Below are positions 1-14,996 of a stretch of 64,000 nucleotides of DNA, piece after piece; the stretch's first letter is position 1; each line of letters begins with the position of its first letter. A program made the position numbers and the translations under genes. The DNA lies in assembly GCA_014804695.1 (NCBI GenBank), contig JAAUZJ010000011.1:121874-185873 (forward strand), in the 5' to 3' direction. The notes beneath the pieces are model-generated. The model searched no databases, was not told where the DNA came from, and saw nothing but the letters and a program-made list of their open reading frames with translations. This DNA is from Lachnospiraceae bacterium (lineage in GTDB: Bacteria; Bacillota; Clostridia; Lachnospirales; Lachnospiraceae).

Positions 1-213
1 ATCACGGTATCAAATACAGGATGTACGCTTGAAACGAAAGAACTACCGCAGATATTCGAGAGTTTTCATCGTGGAAATAATGCGGATAGGGTGCAAGGTA
101 ATGGGCTTGGACTTTTTATCTGCAAACGGCTGATGTCGCTCATGGGTGGAGAGGTGTATGCGGATATTCGTGATAAATGTTTCTATATAACGCTTGTTGT
201 TAAAATGGCGTAA
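1..213 (+). CDS. Sensor histidine kinase, C-terminal fragment (cut by window start)
   Basis: The first 70 codons are open in frame 1 and end in TAA. They read as the end of a GHKL ATPase domain. An IFESFHRG segment (F-box like) is followed by GNGLGLFICKRL, the G2 box that closes over ATP, and a short beta-strand tail. The N-terminal sensor, dimerisation histidine and N box lie outside the window, so the signal and partner regulator are unknown. No response regulator follows on this strand. Confidence 0.85.
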   Translation: MTVSNTGCTLETKELPQIFESFHRGNNADRVQGNGLGLFICKRLMSLMGGEVYADIRDKCFYITLVVKMA

Positions 214-10313: not shown

Positions 10314-11390
10314 GTGGCTGATTATATTGATGTAGAAAAAAGGATATACATACCTTTAAAACCATTAACAGTAAATTTTCATGAAAAAGAAGAAGTTGAA
10401 CTTAATGCTTTTCAGAGATTTATATTAGAGGCAATTGAAGAGAATGCAACATTAGAACAAATAGAAGACGCAACACAATTGCCTGAAAATGTGATTGAAT
10501 CGGAAATTTCGCATATGCAGCGACTAAACCTGCTTAATAAAGATTGTACATTATCAGAATTATCGAAAAATATCTTAATGATTTCAAGATGCTTAGAGAT
10601 ACTGAATAATGAAAAAAAGAAACTGTGTATCTGTCTGATCACCGGAGAACTTGAAGAATATGTTGAAGATAACTATTATAATACAGGCCAGGATGATTGG
10701 GTGATGGAAGGTGAAATAAGATTTGAGGATATATCCGAAATCAGTACAGAGGATAAAGATTCTATTTTGGCGGACAGTTTGTCTGCTTTAAGCGGATTTT
10801 CTGAAGAACAAATTAATAAAGTGCGTTCATCTGTATATGTTGAGTTGAATGAAACTGATAAAAAAATAGTGTATAAGCAGCAGAAAATTAATAAATTGCC
10901 ATGCCTGATAGGCGATAATAAATTAAAGTCTGAAGACAAGATATATGCTGAGGGCAAATTTTCAGTTATTACGGTAGAAGTGTCAAATGACAGCCTTGAA
11001 AAATATAGTGAAAAAATAGCACCCCTTAAAGAATTGTATACGGATGCACCGGAATTTATTTCTGACTTTGGAAAGAATTTGATCAAGGAATACAAGCAGT
11101 ATGAGGATTATAAAAACGAAAAACTGACATTTGCATATGACCATACATCAGGAATGATAAAGGAAGAAAAATATGATACTGATGCTTTTCCGGATGAAAG
11201 AGTGCAGCTGACGTTAAAGGCGGATAAAGAGATAGATGATAAAGTTAAAAGCCGGATTTTTGACGCTGTAAAATCAAAATGGAAATTAGATGAAAAATAT
11301 CAGGTTAAAACAGCAGATGTTAAAGAAGAGAGGTACATAGTTGGATTTTGTCTGGAAGAATTGAGAGGTGATATATATGCGGATAGATAA
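10314..11390 (+). CDS. Unrecognised protein with possible N-terminal winged helix, partner of the zinc-ribbon ATPase
   Basis: A 358-residue protein, GTG start behind TGGGGGTG. I do not recognise the family. Residues about 28-80 (LNAFQRFILEAIEENATLEQIEDATQ ... IESEISHMQRLNLL) read as a winged helix-turn-helix. The rest is soluble, acidic and Lys/Glu-rich, with no cysteine cluster or transmembrane segment. The ending, VGFCLEELRGDIYADR, overlaps the start of the next gene by 14 nt, so the two are translationally coupled. The pair looks like one functional unit, with this protein the likely recognition or adaptor part and the next the ATPase. Function is inferred from position only. Confidence 0.75.
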   Translation: MADYIDVEKRIYIPLKPLTVNFHEKEEVELNAFQRFILEAIEENATLEQIEDATQLPENVIESEISHMQRLNLLNKDCTLSELSKNILMISRCLEILNNEKKKLCICLITGELEEYVEDNYYNTGQDDWVMEGEIRFEDISEISTEDKDSILADSLSALSGFSEEQINKVRSSVYVELNETDKKIVYKQQKINKLPCLIGDNKLKSEDKIYAEGKFSVITVEVSNDSLEKYSEKIAPLKELYTDAPEFISDFGKNLIKEYKQYEDYKNEKLTFAYDHTSGMIKEEKYDTDAFPDERVQLTLKADKEIDDKVKSRIFDAVKSKWKLDEKYQVKTADVKEERYIVGFCLEELRGDIYADR

Positions 11391-13995
11391 TTATGAAAAA
11401 ACTCTTTTGGTTACAGCAGCTGCAGTAAGCTTTATCTGTGACGAATTATCTGAACAGGAAAAGCAGTATCAGAGAAATATGCAGGAAGAATATAACGCAT
11501 ATAAAAACCGCAGAAACAGGGAATATAATGATACTTTAAGATATTATGAAAATGCCGTAAAAAAATCGAAAGGAGATCCCTTACAGGCAGTGATAGAGTA
11601 TCAACGTCAAAGGATAGAAAGGCGAAAAATAGAGAATAGGCATATACATATTGATATATTGAATTTATGTACTAGACATTACGATGAAAAAGAGAATTTG
11701 TTAAAAGAATGTACTGATATTACCCAGATATCACTTGATAAAGCTGTATATAAACTGCAGGCGTATCTTGAGTATTTAGCGGATTATAAAAAACGTATTA
11801 GAGAAACATTTGAAAACTCCGGAGAAATTGAGGAGCCGTTTTCATTGACTTTGCCTAAGGATTGTGATTTTGTGCCGCATGGAACGAGCGGTGGTAGTGA
11901 AAAAGCCGGTGATGCACTCTCAGCCATGCAGTTTAAAAATATCAAGATGGTTCAATCTGCTGATGAAAAAAGGGAGTTTCAAACGTATTTAAAGGAAAAT
12001 GATTTATTAGATAATGCTGATGAGTGGATAATAGCGCCTATTTGGGATGAGGGTAAGAAAAGCGTTTTAAAAGGTGTTATTATGCAGTCCGGAAATCAGT
12101 ATGCATATAAAGCAATGTTTGAGAACTTAGAGTCAAACGCAGCGGGGCGGTTGATATTAAGATATAAAGGAATACTTGAAAAAAAGGATTTTGTTTCATT
12201 TGACAGTGTTTTTGTTACATCAAATGTAACGGTGGAATGTTATTCTCCGGAACAAATTAATAACGATAGAGCGAAATATAGTGAATTATTTGAGGAATGT
12301 TTTAAATTACAATTATACTTAACATATGAACTTCTGATGCAGAAAAAAATGGCGGCCGTTTCACCTATGGGTGCTTATTTGAAAAAATCTGCAAAAAAAC
12401 AGCAAACCAAGGCGCTTAAGCATTTTAAAGAGGGAAGAGTTGTAAACGAAAAAGTTAAAATGGCTGTTTTGAATGTGAAAGAAGAAGAATATTCGGATAA
12501 CGGATATAGAATTAATTTATTTTTTAACGGCGATATCCAAACAAATGAGACACAGGCTGACGCAGTCATAAGGGCGTTTGGTGAAGAAAAATTCTTTATG
12601 ATACAGGGGGCACCGGGGACAGGAAAAACGACCGTGATCAAAGAACTGATCATGCAGCAGTTAAACATGATTCCTGATTCAAAAATATTGTTTGTCTCTC
12701 AGACAAACGATGCACTTGATAATGTTATCAGAGGAATTGTAGAAACTTCGCAGGGGTATGAACTTATTGAAAAGAACCAGATCGTCAGGTGTGGCTCTAC
12801 GGGAAAAATTCCAGAGGATATAGATGAGTATTCACTTGAAAATAAATGTAAAAAATATAAAGAGAATCTCAAAAATCATGAAGTAAGCGGCGAAGCTATG
12901 AAACTAAGGGAGAAATGGCAAAGCTTTATTGAAGATAAAGCAAATAATGATGCTGTAGGAGAATATCTTTTGGTAGATTTCCGGATTGTCGGCGCTACAT
13001 GTGCCGGATTGGAAAGCAGACATTATGGATTAAATGGATATGAGTTTGATCTGGTTATAATTGATGATGCCGGAGCAGCATCGGCCGGAGAATTATTAAT
13101 TCCAATCAACCGGGCGAAAAAATTGATCATGATCGGCGATTACAAGCAGCAAGCAGATTCTTTGAATAAAAGTTTCTTCCAACGATTATATGATGATTGC
13201 CCGGATAATATGAAGTGTACACTGAAGACGCAGCTTAGAATGACGTCTGTTATAGCGGGACTTTTTCATAAGGCAGGCAGCCACATGGACAATAAAGAAT
13301 TTTTTGAATCCGTTAAAAAAGTCGAAGCGGATAAGAGATTGTGCGAAGCCTGTGGAAGAGAACTTGACAATAATGAAAACGTATTATGTGTAAGATGTCT
13401 TGAAAAGAGCGAGACCGTAAACTGCCAAGGCTGTAATAAAGAGATTGTATATCCGCTATATTATAAACATATTCTGAAAAAAGAAGCGGAATTGATCTGC
13501 GGATGCAGTCAAAAGGCTATATGTGAAGAATGCGGAAAGAGTGTTTGGATTGAACAGAGTGCTCTTGAAGAATTACAACTTTTAAAGAAGAAGTGCTTAT
13601 GTAATGAATGTACAGAGTTGTATAAACAAAAAGTTTATGTTACTTGTGAGCGATGTGGAGATATGATGGAATTCACGTATGCTCATAAAAGAAGGCTGGA
13701 AGAAAACGGAAACGCATTGCCGACGATATGTCCTAAATGCAGACAAGACGATAGCAGGATGGTTACAGTTGGAGTGTGCAAGGCCTGTGGAAAGGATATT
13801 ACATATCAGTCATATTTTATAGCAAGACATAATATTGGCAGACAGACACTTCATAAAGAATGCAGGGATAAATTGTGCGATCCCATTTTTTGTGAAAAGT
13901 GTGGAAGAAAATTTGTTATTACATATGGTGAGAAGGAAGATTATGAGAGTAGAGGGGATGAGATACCTAGGATATGTGAAAAGTGCAGGGGATAA
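11377..13995 (+). CDS. SF1-like ATPase fused to tandem zinc ribbons, lacking the second RecA half
   Basis: An 872-residue protein. ATG 11377 is chosen because AGAGG lies 8 nt upstream; GTG 11368 is also in frame. Residues 1-400 are Lys/Glu-rich, probably partly coiled. The Dna2/Nam7-like RecA-1 domain follows: Walker A GAPGTGKT (411-418), motif Ia FVSQTNDALDNVI, Walker B-like VIIDDAG (Asp563/Asp564 instead of DE), motif III GDYKQQ (587-592) and a motif IV-like TQLRM (618-622). Motifs V and VI, with the arginine finger of RecA-2, are absent. From about 655 to the end come repeated Cys-x2-Cys pairs forming about five zinc ribbons of 35-40 residues each. The ATPase could be a regulatory switch rather than a helicase. 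Confidence 0.85.
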   Translation: MRIDNYEKTLLVTAAAVSFICDELSEQEKQYQRNMQEEYNAYKNRRNREYNDTLRYYENAVKKSKGDPLQAVIEYQRQRIERRKIENRHIHIDILNLCTRHYDEKENLLKECTDITQISLDKAVYKLQAYLEYLADYKKRIRETFENSGEIEEPFSLTLPKDCDFVPHGTSGGSEKAGDALSAMQFKNIKMVQSADEKREFQTYLKENDLLDNADEWIIAPIWDEGKKSVLKGVIMQSGNQYAYKAMFENLESNAAGRLILRYKGILEKKDFVSFDSVFVTSNVTVECYSPEQINNDRAKYSELFEECFKLQLYLTYELLMQKKMAAVSPMGAYLKKSAKKQQTKALKHFKEGRVVNEKVKMAVLNVKEEEYSDNGYRINLFFNGDIQTNETQADAVIRAFGEEKFFMIQGAPGTGKTTVIKELIMQQLNMIPDSKILFVSQTNDALDNVIRGIVETSQGYELIEKNQIVRCGSTGKIPEDIDEYSLENKCKKYKENLKNHEVSGEAMKLREKWQSFIEDKANNDAVGEYLLVDFRIVGATCAGLESRHYGLNGYEFDLVIIDDAGAASAGELLIPINRAKKLIMIGDYKQQADSLNKSFFQRLYDDCPDNMKCTLKTQLRMTSVIAGLFHKAGSHMDNKEFFESVKKVEADKRLCEACGRELDNNENVLCVRCLEKSETVNCQGCNKEIVYPLYYKHILKKEAELICGCSQKAICEECGKSVWIEQSALEELQLLKKKCLCNECTELYKQKVYVTCERCGDMMEFTYAHKRRLEENGNALPTICPKCRQDDSRMVTVGVCKACGKDITYQSYFIARHNIGRQTLHKECRDKLCDPIFCEKCGRKFVITYGEKEDYESRGDEIPRICEKCRG

Positions 13996-14061: not shown

Positions 14062-14092
14062 GGCCTAGACATACGTGTGTCTAGGTCTTTTG
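14062..14092 (+). terminator. Terminator after the zinc-ribbon ATPase gene
   Basis: CCTAGACA (14064-14071) and TGTCTAGG (14078-14085) form an 8-bp stem, extended by two weaker pairs, with a 6-nt loop and TCTTTTGTT after it. It lies about 65 bp past the ATPase stop. The remaining intergenic sequence up to 14422 holds a short gene remnant (14125-14247) and AT-rich DNA with no other recognisable element. Confidence 0.8.
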
Positions 14093-14422: not shown

Positions 14423-14686
14423 ATGCCAGAGTTAAGTAGATTTGGTGGTATTGTAATATATCTGTTATTTAATGATACACAACAGCATAATAAACCGCAT
14501 GTTCATGTTTATTATGGAGAATATGAGGCTGCAGTTGGAATAGATGGCGAGTTATTAGCAGGTTCTTTGCCGAGAAAACAGCTAAAAATGGTTGTCGGAT
14601 GGCTGGCTTATCATGAAGAAGAGGCATATAAAGCATGGAATCTTGCAGTTAAAGGCGAGCATTTTGAAAAGATTGCACCAATGTAG
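14423..14686 (+). CDS. DUF4160 protein
   Basis: An 87-residue protein matching DUF4160: a start with ELSRFGGIVIYLLFND, then HNKPHVHVYYGEYEAAVGIDG-x-LLAGSLPRKQLKMVVGW and a terminal helix with EEAYKAWNLAVKGE. AGGGGGACT precedes the ATG. Members almost always neighbour a DUF2442 gene, as here, and the pair is suspected to be a toxin-antitoxin-like module. Molecular activity is not established. Confidence 0.9.
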   Translation: MPELSRFGGIVIYLLFNDTQQHNKPHVHVYYGEYEAAVGIDGELLAGSLPRKQLKMVVGWLAYHEEEAYKAWNLAVKGEHFEKIAPM

Positions 14687-14699
14687 GAGGTATTTAAAT

Positions 14700-14996
14700 A
14701 TGTATATTGTTGATGACATATGTTATGCCGGAGAGAAAACAGAAGGAATCAAAGTTAAGGAAGCTAAAGCAATGAGAGGCGGCATGCTTTTGGTGACATT
14801 TACAACAGGTGAAAAGAGATTATATGATACAACTTTATTAAAGGGTGAAGCATTTAGACCTTTAAGGGATAATAAAATATTTCAAAATATCTCTATTTTT
14901 CATGGAGTAATAACATGGAATAATGGAGAAATTGATATTGCGCCCGAAACGGTTTATGCGGACAGTTACCCATACGATACATTAGAAGTTGGATAA
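14700..14996 (+). CDS. DUF2442 protein
   Basis: A 98-residue protein. The start at 14700 is set by TAGGAGG 8-9 nt upstream. The pattern LLVTFTTGEKRLYDTTLLKGEAFRPLRD, then GVITWNNGEIDIAPETVYADSY, is the DUF2442 core. It begins 13 nt after DUF4160 ends, so the two are one transcript. The family is small and soluble, and some members are fused to DNA-binding domains. Its 3' end overlaps the first codons of the longer reading of the next gene. Confidence 0.9.
   Translation: MYIVDDICYAGEKTEGIKVKEAKAMRGGMLLVTFTTGEKRLYDTTLLKGEAFRPLRDNKIFQNISIFHGVITWNNGEIDIAPETVYADSYPYDTLEVG

Follow-up and report, generated by a model that had tools for sequence, protein, structure and literature searches.

A UPF1-like helicase unit without its second RecA domain in Lachnospiraceae: probably a reduced descendant of a four-gene module, kept for its cysteine-rich tail

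A two-gene unit lies in the 64,000-nucleotide stretch of Lachnospiraceae DNA analysed here (assembly GCA_014804695.1, contig JAAUZJ010000011.1, positions 121,874 to 185,873; below, the window). Its second gene encodes the first RecA-like domain (RecA-1) of a superfamily 1 (SF1) helicase and then runs into a cysteine-rich tail. This raises the question of what became of the second RecA domain (RecA-2), and for what a helicase lacking it would be kept. Comparison with full-length relatives suggests that the unit is the reduced descendant of a four-gene module, A-B-C-D, and probably a non-motor derivative retained for its tail. Its parts are as follows.

10314..11390, forward strand: gene 1 (A), GTG start, 358 residues, with a winged-helix-like N-terminal region; counterpart of gene A of the module
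11377..13995, forward strand: gene 2 (a shrunken D), 872 residues, a UPF1-like helicase remnant ending in the cysteine-rich tail
12607..12633, forward strand: Walker A, GAPGTGKTT, residues 411-419 of gene 2
13048..13074, forward strand: Walker B, DLVIIDDAG, residues 558-566; E to D in the window, D to N in a sister species
13228..13242, forward strand: TQLRM, end of RecA-1, residues 618-622
13342..13992, forward strand: cysteine-rich tail with six paired sites (one with His), ungapped against the tail of the full-length relative L010

The two genes overlap and run in the same direction, and the open reading frame (ORF) listing gives gene 2 as one unbroken frame (11368-13995, GTG); the ATG at 11377, preceded by AGAGGTG, was chosen from the sequence as its start. 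Besides the motifs above, VSQTNDALDN begins at residue 440 and GDYKQQ at residue 587. Pfam identified a UPF1/Dna2-type RecA-1 (AAA_11, 3e-32), and no RecA-2 (AAA_12) was found among the best 25 of 28 matching families. These results bear out an earlier note on this DNA, which had described a two-gene unit with a Dna2/Nam7-type RecA-1, an intact frame and no motif V or VI. In a search of solved structures the RecA-1 of gene 2 aligned to SMUBP-2 at 2e-11, and the best NCBIfam model was the IGHMBP2 family helicase, below its cut-off (104.6 of 348.9 bits). The closest PADLOC model was MkoA (7.5e-49 over residues 94-630), and PHROGs placed the protein in a helicase-type family of unknown function. 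The last 233 residues contain 25 cysteines, which may be grouped as six paired, putatively zinc-binding sites; the earlier note had rightly seen such a tail run to the stop, though it counted about five Cys-x2-Cys ribbons. For gene 1, in which it suspected a winged helix, the profile evidence is weak: the N-terminus matches PADLOC MkoB at 2.6e-5, and hhalign aligned the A family to one MkoB with a probability of 88.8 (pairwise E 2.5e-6). By phmmer, gene 1 matches the A protein of genome G194 at 2.6e-8 and that of L010 at 3.6e-121.

L010, a contig of IMG/VR, carries the relative that is most informative about the tail. Its helicase of 1370 residues has RecA-1, then RecA-2 (AAA_12, 3.4e-37), then the same cysteine-rich tail, and between TQFRM and the tail lie TIDAFQGDE and ARLNVAFSRAR, which correspond to motifs V and VI. 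A second IMG/VR contig ends inside a helicase of the L010 type and is identical to it over its 150 residues. Since L010 has both these motifs and the tail, the tail predates the truncation, and RecA-2 was lost by in-frame deletion. The earlier note had supposed that the second half of the helicase was replaced by zinc ribbons, which this does not support; it had also named homologues keeping motifs V and VI at this position as a sign of local deletion, and L010 is such a homologue. RecA-2 with both motifs is likewise present in the helicases of genomes G194 (1169 residues, AAA_12 6.9e-44), G647 and G1292, and is absent from the window and its sister species.

Alignment of the operon DNA of the window, the sister species and L010 revealed how the unit shrank. 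The joints of six deletions relative to L010 are located as follows.

11377..11404, forward strand: fusion joint, where the start of B is joined in frame to D just past the hydrophobic segment of D; 1230 nucleotides (nt) missing
11720..11721, forward strand: joint of a 69-nt in-frame deletion
11855..11856, forward strand: joint of a 384-nt in-frame deletion
12389..12390, forward strand: joint of a 339-nt in-frame deletion
13146..13147, forward strand: joint of a 75-nt in-frame deletion, which removes the LPPVINP loop (motif III) after GDxKQ
13270..13293, forward strand: site of the missing RecA-2, with 624 nt gone in the window and 576 nt in the sister

The deletions are common to the window and the sister, apart from a further 48-nt loss in the window, and their net lengths are all multiples of three; by simple arithmetic, chance alone would put six deletions all in frame roughly one time in 729. 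The first and the last are split by short aligned islands, so that their boundaries depend on the alignment; at the fusion joint an island of 10 nt leaves the exact ends uncertain. The 1230-nt loss took almost the whole of B, C in full and the opening codons of D, and gene 2 now uses the start codon of B. Genes 1 and 2 are thus neighbours because the two genes between them were deleted. On the co-occurrence of the pair, which the earlier note had wished to see checked, the adjacency holds at this locus, whereas in intact modules A and D are separated by B and C. With the start of D its hydrophobic segment was lost as well (highest mean hydrophobicity over 19 residues within the first 40: 2.33 in D of L010, 0.95 in the window and 0.64 in the sister). 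In L010, AATAAAA is found near both ends of the 69-nt segment and GATTAT near both ends of the 384-nt segment. The intact form is probably the ancestral one, as four full-length modules in distant genomes share it.

The truncated form is rare. With gene 2 as query, 3 of 299 genomes of the family matched, and 2 of 77 genomes of the genus at 1e-10, the window's own genome being counted in both. Two records, G347 and L004, are the same contig and were counted once, which leaves a single sister-species copy from one metagenome-assembled genome. Its gene 2 is 81-82% identical to that of the window and has the same truncated form; an assembly chimera or a frameshift was therefore rejected as the origin of the truncation. 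Apart from L010, the window and the sister, no locus was seen to carry the tail. It was considered as a separate mobile domain and rejected, there being no match at 1e-5 in the 298 other genomes of the family. No match was found in phages at 0.01, a pattern-based scan of viral contigs returned the contig of L010 alone, and plasmids gave one partial match, to the last two sites, in a Lysinibacillus protein. Whole relatives on plasmids were also sought: 58 plasmid records match gene 2 and 282 match D of L010, none over at least 80% of the query. On a Streptococcus salivarius plasmid (NZ_CP054154.1, 5511-7007) a short gene of 1497 nt encodes a related AAA protein, with several hypothetical genes upstream; it is possibly another split or shortened relative.

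The ratio of nonsynonymous to synonymous substitution rates (dN/dS) was then compared between the window and the sister. It is 0.55 (0.36-0.87) for gene 1 and 0.32 for gene 2 as a whole; within gene 2 it is 0.14 (0.07-0.24) for the tail, 0.30 (0.20-0.44) for RecA-1, 0.40 for the coil and 0.48 for the middle region. Seven neighbouring genes range from 0.01 to 0.22. Only the tail, which is 93% identical between the two species, falls within that range; the rest of the unit is therefore under relaxed constraint, which also fits slow decay. Against L010 the order is reversed, with 0.12-0.14 for RecA-1 and 0.28 for the tail, and dN between window and L010 is 0.176 for RecA-1 and 0.285 for the tail. 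Residue changes after the species split numbered 55 in RecA-1 and 16 in the tail, against 45 and 89 older ones (Fisher p 2e-9, in a test that treats sites as independent and with an older class that includes the branch of L010 itself). Neither lineage has acquired a stop codon, whereas 300 runs of a neutral simulation with 0.14 changes per site gave a mean of 19.5 per lineage and never fewer than 9. Selection has preserved the reading frame. For the single pair that can be compared, the simplest reading of these sequences is that constraint moved from RecA-1 to the tail, the motor having lost importance and the tail having kept it. Within the tail, one of the cysteine pairs in the second ribbon has the form CxxC in L010 (tail residues 69-72) but CxC in the window (69-71) and the sister, so that one presumed zinc ligand of this ribbon is shifted by one residue.

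The ATPase site has changed too. The Lys and Thr of Walker A are kept in both shrunken copies, while the acidic pair of Walker B, Asp-Glu in L010, reads Asp-Asp in the window and has become Asn-Glu in the sister. The catalytic positions P676 (the Walker A Pro), one of D828 and E829, K832 (the Lys after the Walker B pair) and H854 (the His of GDHKQ), in L010 numbering, are changed in the window and the sister and not in L010. Loss of RecA-2 has also left RecA-1 without the partner lobe that hydrolysis or movement would need. The gene 2 protein may still bind nucleotide, and an ATP-driven switch, as the earlier note proposed, is unlikely for a Walker B pair that reads Asp-Asp here and Asn-Glu in the sister.

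We therefore regard the window unit as probably a reduced descendant of the four-gene module and a non-motor derivative kept for its tail. The ancestor would have consisted of A, a winged helix-turn-helix (wHTH)-like protein, the coil-like B and C, and D, a UPF1-like SF1 helicase with a hydrophobic N-terminus. The shared in-frame deletions removed B, C, the N-terminus and middle parts of D, the motif III loop and RecA-2, leaving A and a protein of RecA-1 and ribbons. Such a protein would no longer translocate as a motor and would probably be a poor ATPase, with ATP binding perhaps retained; most probably it is a passive binder of nucleic acid or of a partner through its ribbons and acts together with A, whether as a regulator, as a blocker or in some similar role. 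Several observations weigh against this account. The shrunken form is known from two copies, the window and one metagenome-assembled genome, and the shift of constraint from one pair with one outgroup. The synonymous distance to L010 is near saturation (dS 1.0-1.4 for tail and RecA-1), and a faster tail on the branch of L010 would produce part of the same pattern. The number of altered conserved positions differs little: four full-length helicases share 61 invariant columns in RecA-1, of which L010 itself changes 5 and the window and the sister 7 each, a further 5 being deleted in both shrunken forms. Finally, the high dN/dS values of gene 1 and of the middle of gene 2 are also compatible with slow decay.

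Slow decay is the main rival, and the unit may be called a retained or slowly fading derivative. Under decay, the operon would have become functionless after the deletions and be on its way out, with a residual dN/dS below 1. The excess of every part except the tail over the seven neighbours agrees with this, as do the different loss of Walker B in each species, the further 48-nt loss in the window and the carriage by 2 of 77 genus genomes; the lack of stops or frameshifts in either lineage where about 19.5 stops would be expected in each, the tail dN/dS of 0.14 and the in-frame nature of the large deletions speak against it, and we consider it possible though doubtful. An ATP-driven switch built on the single RecA domain, with the ribbons holding it to nucleic acid, seems highly improbable: the conserved Walker A residues and the purifying selection on RecA-1 (dN/dS 0.30) would suit it, but the Walker B pair is broken differently in the two species, the motif III loop and RecA-2 are gone, and RecA-1 is less constrained than it is between shrunken and full-length forms. 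Alternatively, the shrunken unit could antagonise the mobile module, with A and the tail titrating or poisoning an incoming A-B-C-D complex. Retention of A and the tail with loss of the motor would fit, and two of the four intact modules adjoin serine recombinases; yet no other gene 2 match at 1e-10 was found in the 77 genus genomes, hence no intact module there, and this is the least probable of the explanations. A broader proposal, in which a mobile defence-type SF1 helicase was turned stepwise into a host-kept, non-motor zinc-ribbon protein as constraint moved from motor to tail, possibly to serve as a chromosomal antagonist or regulator of the complete A-B-C-D module, and in which the intact module is an undescribed kinase-less variant of Mokosh or CnuH/CnuE, is in its entirety unlikely. 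A reduced derivative kept for its tail remains the reading we prefer. It would be a case of a helicase module that shrinks while selection continues to act on one domain, which points to where the retained function lies, and it advises looking for full-length relatives before a truncated motor is called a new kind of switch.

Of the two, the intact module is of greater interest and better suited to experiments. It is found in three families and one IMG/VR contig and is directly testable for anti-phage activity. Its four operons are located as follows.

L010, 1766-8171: four-gene operon A-B-C-D
L007, 4907-10549: four-gene operon A-B-C-D
L014, 167-6312: four-gene operon A-B-C-D
L067, 4696-10669: four-gene operon A-B-C-D

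In L010 the proteins A, B, C and D have 353, 189, 210 and 1370 residues, and A is 57% identical to gene 1. The same order occurs in G194 (338/167/203/1169 residues), G647 (340/184/228/1225) and G1292 (392/189/199/1202), which belong to three different families and whose D lacks the tail. Sequence similarity links the A proteins (for example, G194 to G1292 at 1.4e-22 and G194 to the window at 4.1e-8). Weak wHTH-type matches were found in A, to MkoB (window, G194, G647) and to Csa3/CasR regulators (G647, G1292); A of L010 gave no wHTH-type match. Homology of B (L010 to G1292, 1.5e-4) and of C (G194 to G1292, 1.4e-3) is weak and the correspondence is otherwise positional; in this comparison none of 440 shuffled decoys reached E <=1, and the label coil-like for B and C was given by inspection. 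Across the four full-length D proteins, the best 19-residue mean of the N-terminal hydrophobic segment ranges from 1.43 to 2.33, and a segment at the bottom of this range would not alone count as a membrane helix. Serine recombinase genes adjoin the modules of L010 and G1292. Directly upstream of A in G647 (L014, 6312-6650) is a gene for a protein of 112 residues whose start is hydrophobic and whose remainder is charged and coil-like.

The module looks rare. A helicase module search, scoring the best one or two candidates per genome at a 1e-60 limit that misses the shrunken form, found it in 1 of 392 genomes of an order sample and in 2 of 391 of a class sample, the window's own included (1 of 390 besides), and in none of 398 of a phylum sample, an empty result that had no positive control and is uninformative alone; the three samples overlap. 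No name for A-B-C-D as a unit was found in Pfam, PADLOC, NCBIfam or PHROGs, and among the titles and abstract openings returned by searches of an open-licence library none describes such an operon. PHROGs gave no match for gene 1, nor for B or C of L010, and solved-structure searches with the tail and with the A alignment returned weak matches only, of no clear meaning.

Among known systems, the helicase core of both window and module is closest to Mokosh type I. All four full-length D proteins match PADLOC MkoA (1e-105 to 1e-121) over both RecA domains, MkoA is also the best PADLOC match of the window's core, and A weakly resembles the N-terminal region of MkoB. As passages of PMC11672841 and PMC10952713 describe it, Mokosh type I encodes an RNA helicase and a phospholipase D (PLD) nuclease by separate genes and carries a kinase domain in addition. 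Here A lies upstream of the helicase, the intact module has two extra coil-like genes, the window unit lacks RecA-2, and neither kinase nor PLD was detected. No kinase was found by Pfam in the two window genes or in the genes of L010 and G194 (for the helicases, among the best 25 of 27 to 33 families) or by PADLOC in any of the four full-length D proteins, G647 and G1292 being scanned with PADLOC only; the same Pfam scan recovered Pkinase at 1.2e-30 in the MkoA of G022, which has a Mokosh type I-like pair of a kinase-helicase (1046 residues) and an MkoB-like protein (440 residues). PLD gave no Pfam match in gene 1 or in A, B and C of L010 and G194, a weak test in that the MkoB of G022 was also unmatched. 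As kinase and PLD were tested and not found, neither the window unit nor the module was filed as Mokosh.

The best analogy for the intact module is CnuH/CnuE. Passages of PMC11090510 describe UPF1-like CnuH helicases as typically encoded with a downstream wHTH-effector gene and suggest helicase-effector coupling; the CnuE wHTH-effector of CoCoNuT types II and III and their relatives is described there as generally carrying a nuclease. The module likewise joins a UPF1-like SF1 helicase to a wHTH-like gene and genes for coil-like proteins in one operon, but A is upstream and no effector was recognised, with no nuclease family found by Pfam in A of the window, L010 and G194. A reading of the ORF lists for the loci retrieved, in which a minority of the flanking genes were profile-scanned, showed no recognisable CnuB or CnuC (McrBC) gene. 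By analogy with CnuH/CnuE and Mokosh, D of the intact module may sense or remodel RNA or single-stranded DNA and signal to A, B and C.

IGHMBP2/SMUBP-2, Upf1, Sen1 and Dna2 have two RecA domains and act as motors. The RecA-1 of the window aligns to solved structures of this kind and has its motifs in position; it differs from an active UPF1-like motor in the Walker B pair (DD, or NE in the sister), in the deleted loop after GDxKQ and, as in the sister, in the missing motifs V and VI of RecA-2. The earlier suggestion of a defence or RNA-handling system is borne out in part, for lineage: the match of gene 2 to MkoA (7.5e-49) and the weak match of gene 1 to MkoB (2.6e-5) point to a UPF1-like helicase and wHTH-like partner such as defence systems contain; no defence island was recognised around the unit, as judged mainly from ORF lists with neighbours partly profile-scanned.

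Downstream of gene 2 lies the following feature.

14062..14087, forward strand: terminator-like hairpin of 11 pairs, then TTTTGTT

The hairpin agrees with the terminator earlier placed at the end of the unit, but the scanned region has two such sites against a shuffle mean of 1.5, which is not above chance. Genes for DUF4160 and DUF2442 proteins follow (14423-14996), which had been taken for accessory genes. They have no match in the sister locus, where an O-antigen-ligase-like gene follows directly, and therefore lie outside the unit. Apart from these two small genes, the sister locus has the same neighbours on both sides; the names of neighbours (AI-2E permease, O-antigen ligase, prolyl-tRNA synthetase, kinases) were assigned by reading translations.

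As far as ORF lists show, the unit appears to sit at an ordinary chromosomal site. The upstream AI-2E-permease-like gene was matched in 72 of the 77 genus genomes, and 17 of these stretches, mostly from the closest genomes, were examined. In 14 of them it adjoins the O-antigen-ligase-like gene, the matched regions being 46-269 nt apart, and gene 1 and gene 2 had no match at 1e-6 in any of the 17. An insertion hotspot for defence genes was considered and was not seen in these stretches. The remaining three have unrelated genes in between: transport-type genes in one, by inspection, and in two a gene like an Fe-hydrogenase and a methyl-accepting chemotaxis protein (MCP). The latter (L045, 1946-3913; L046, 5781-7748) encodes a fusion of an Fe-hydrogenase-like protein with a methyl-accepting chemotaxis signalling domain, as identified by Pfam on L045.

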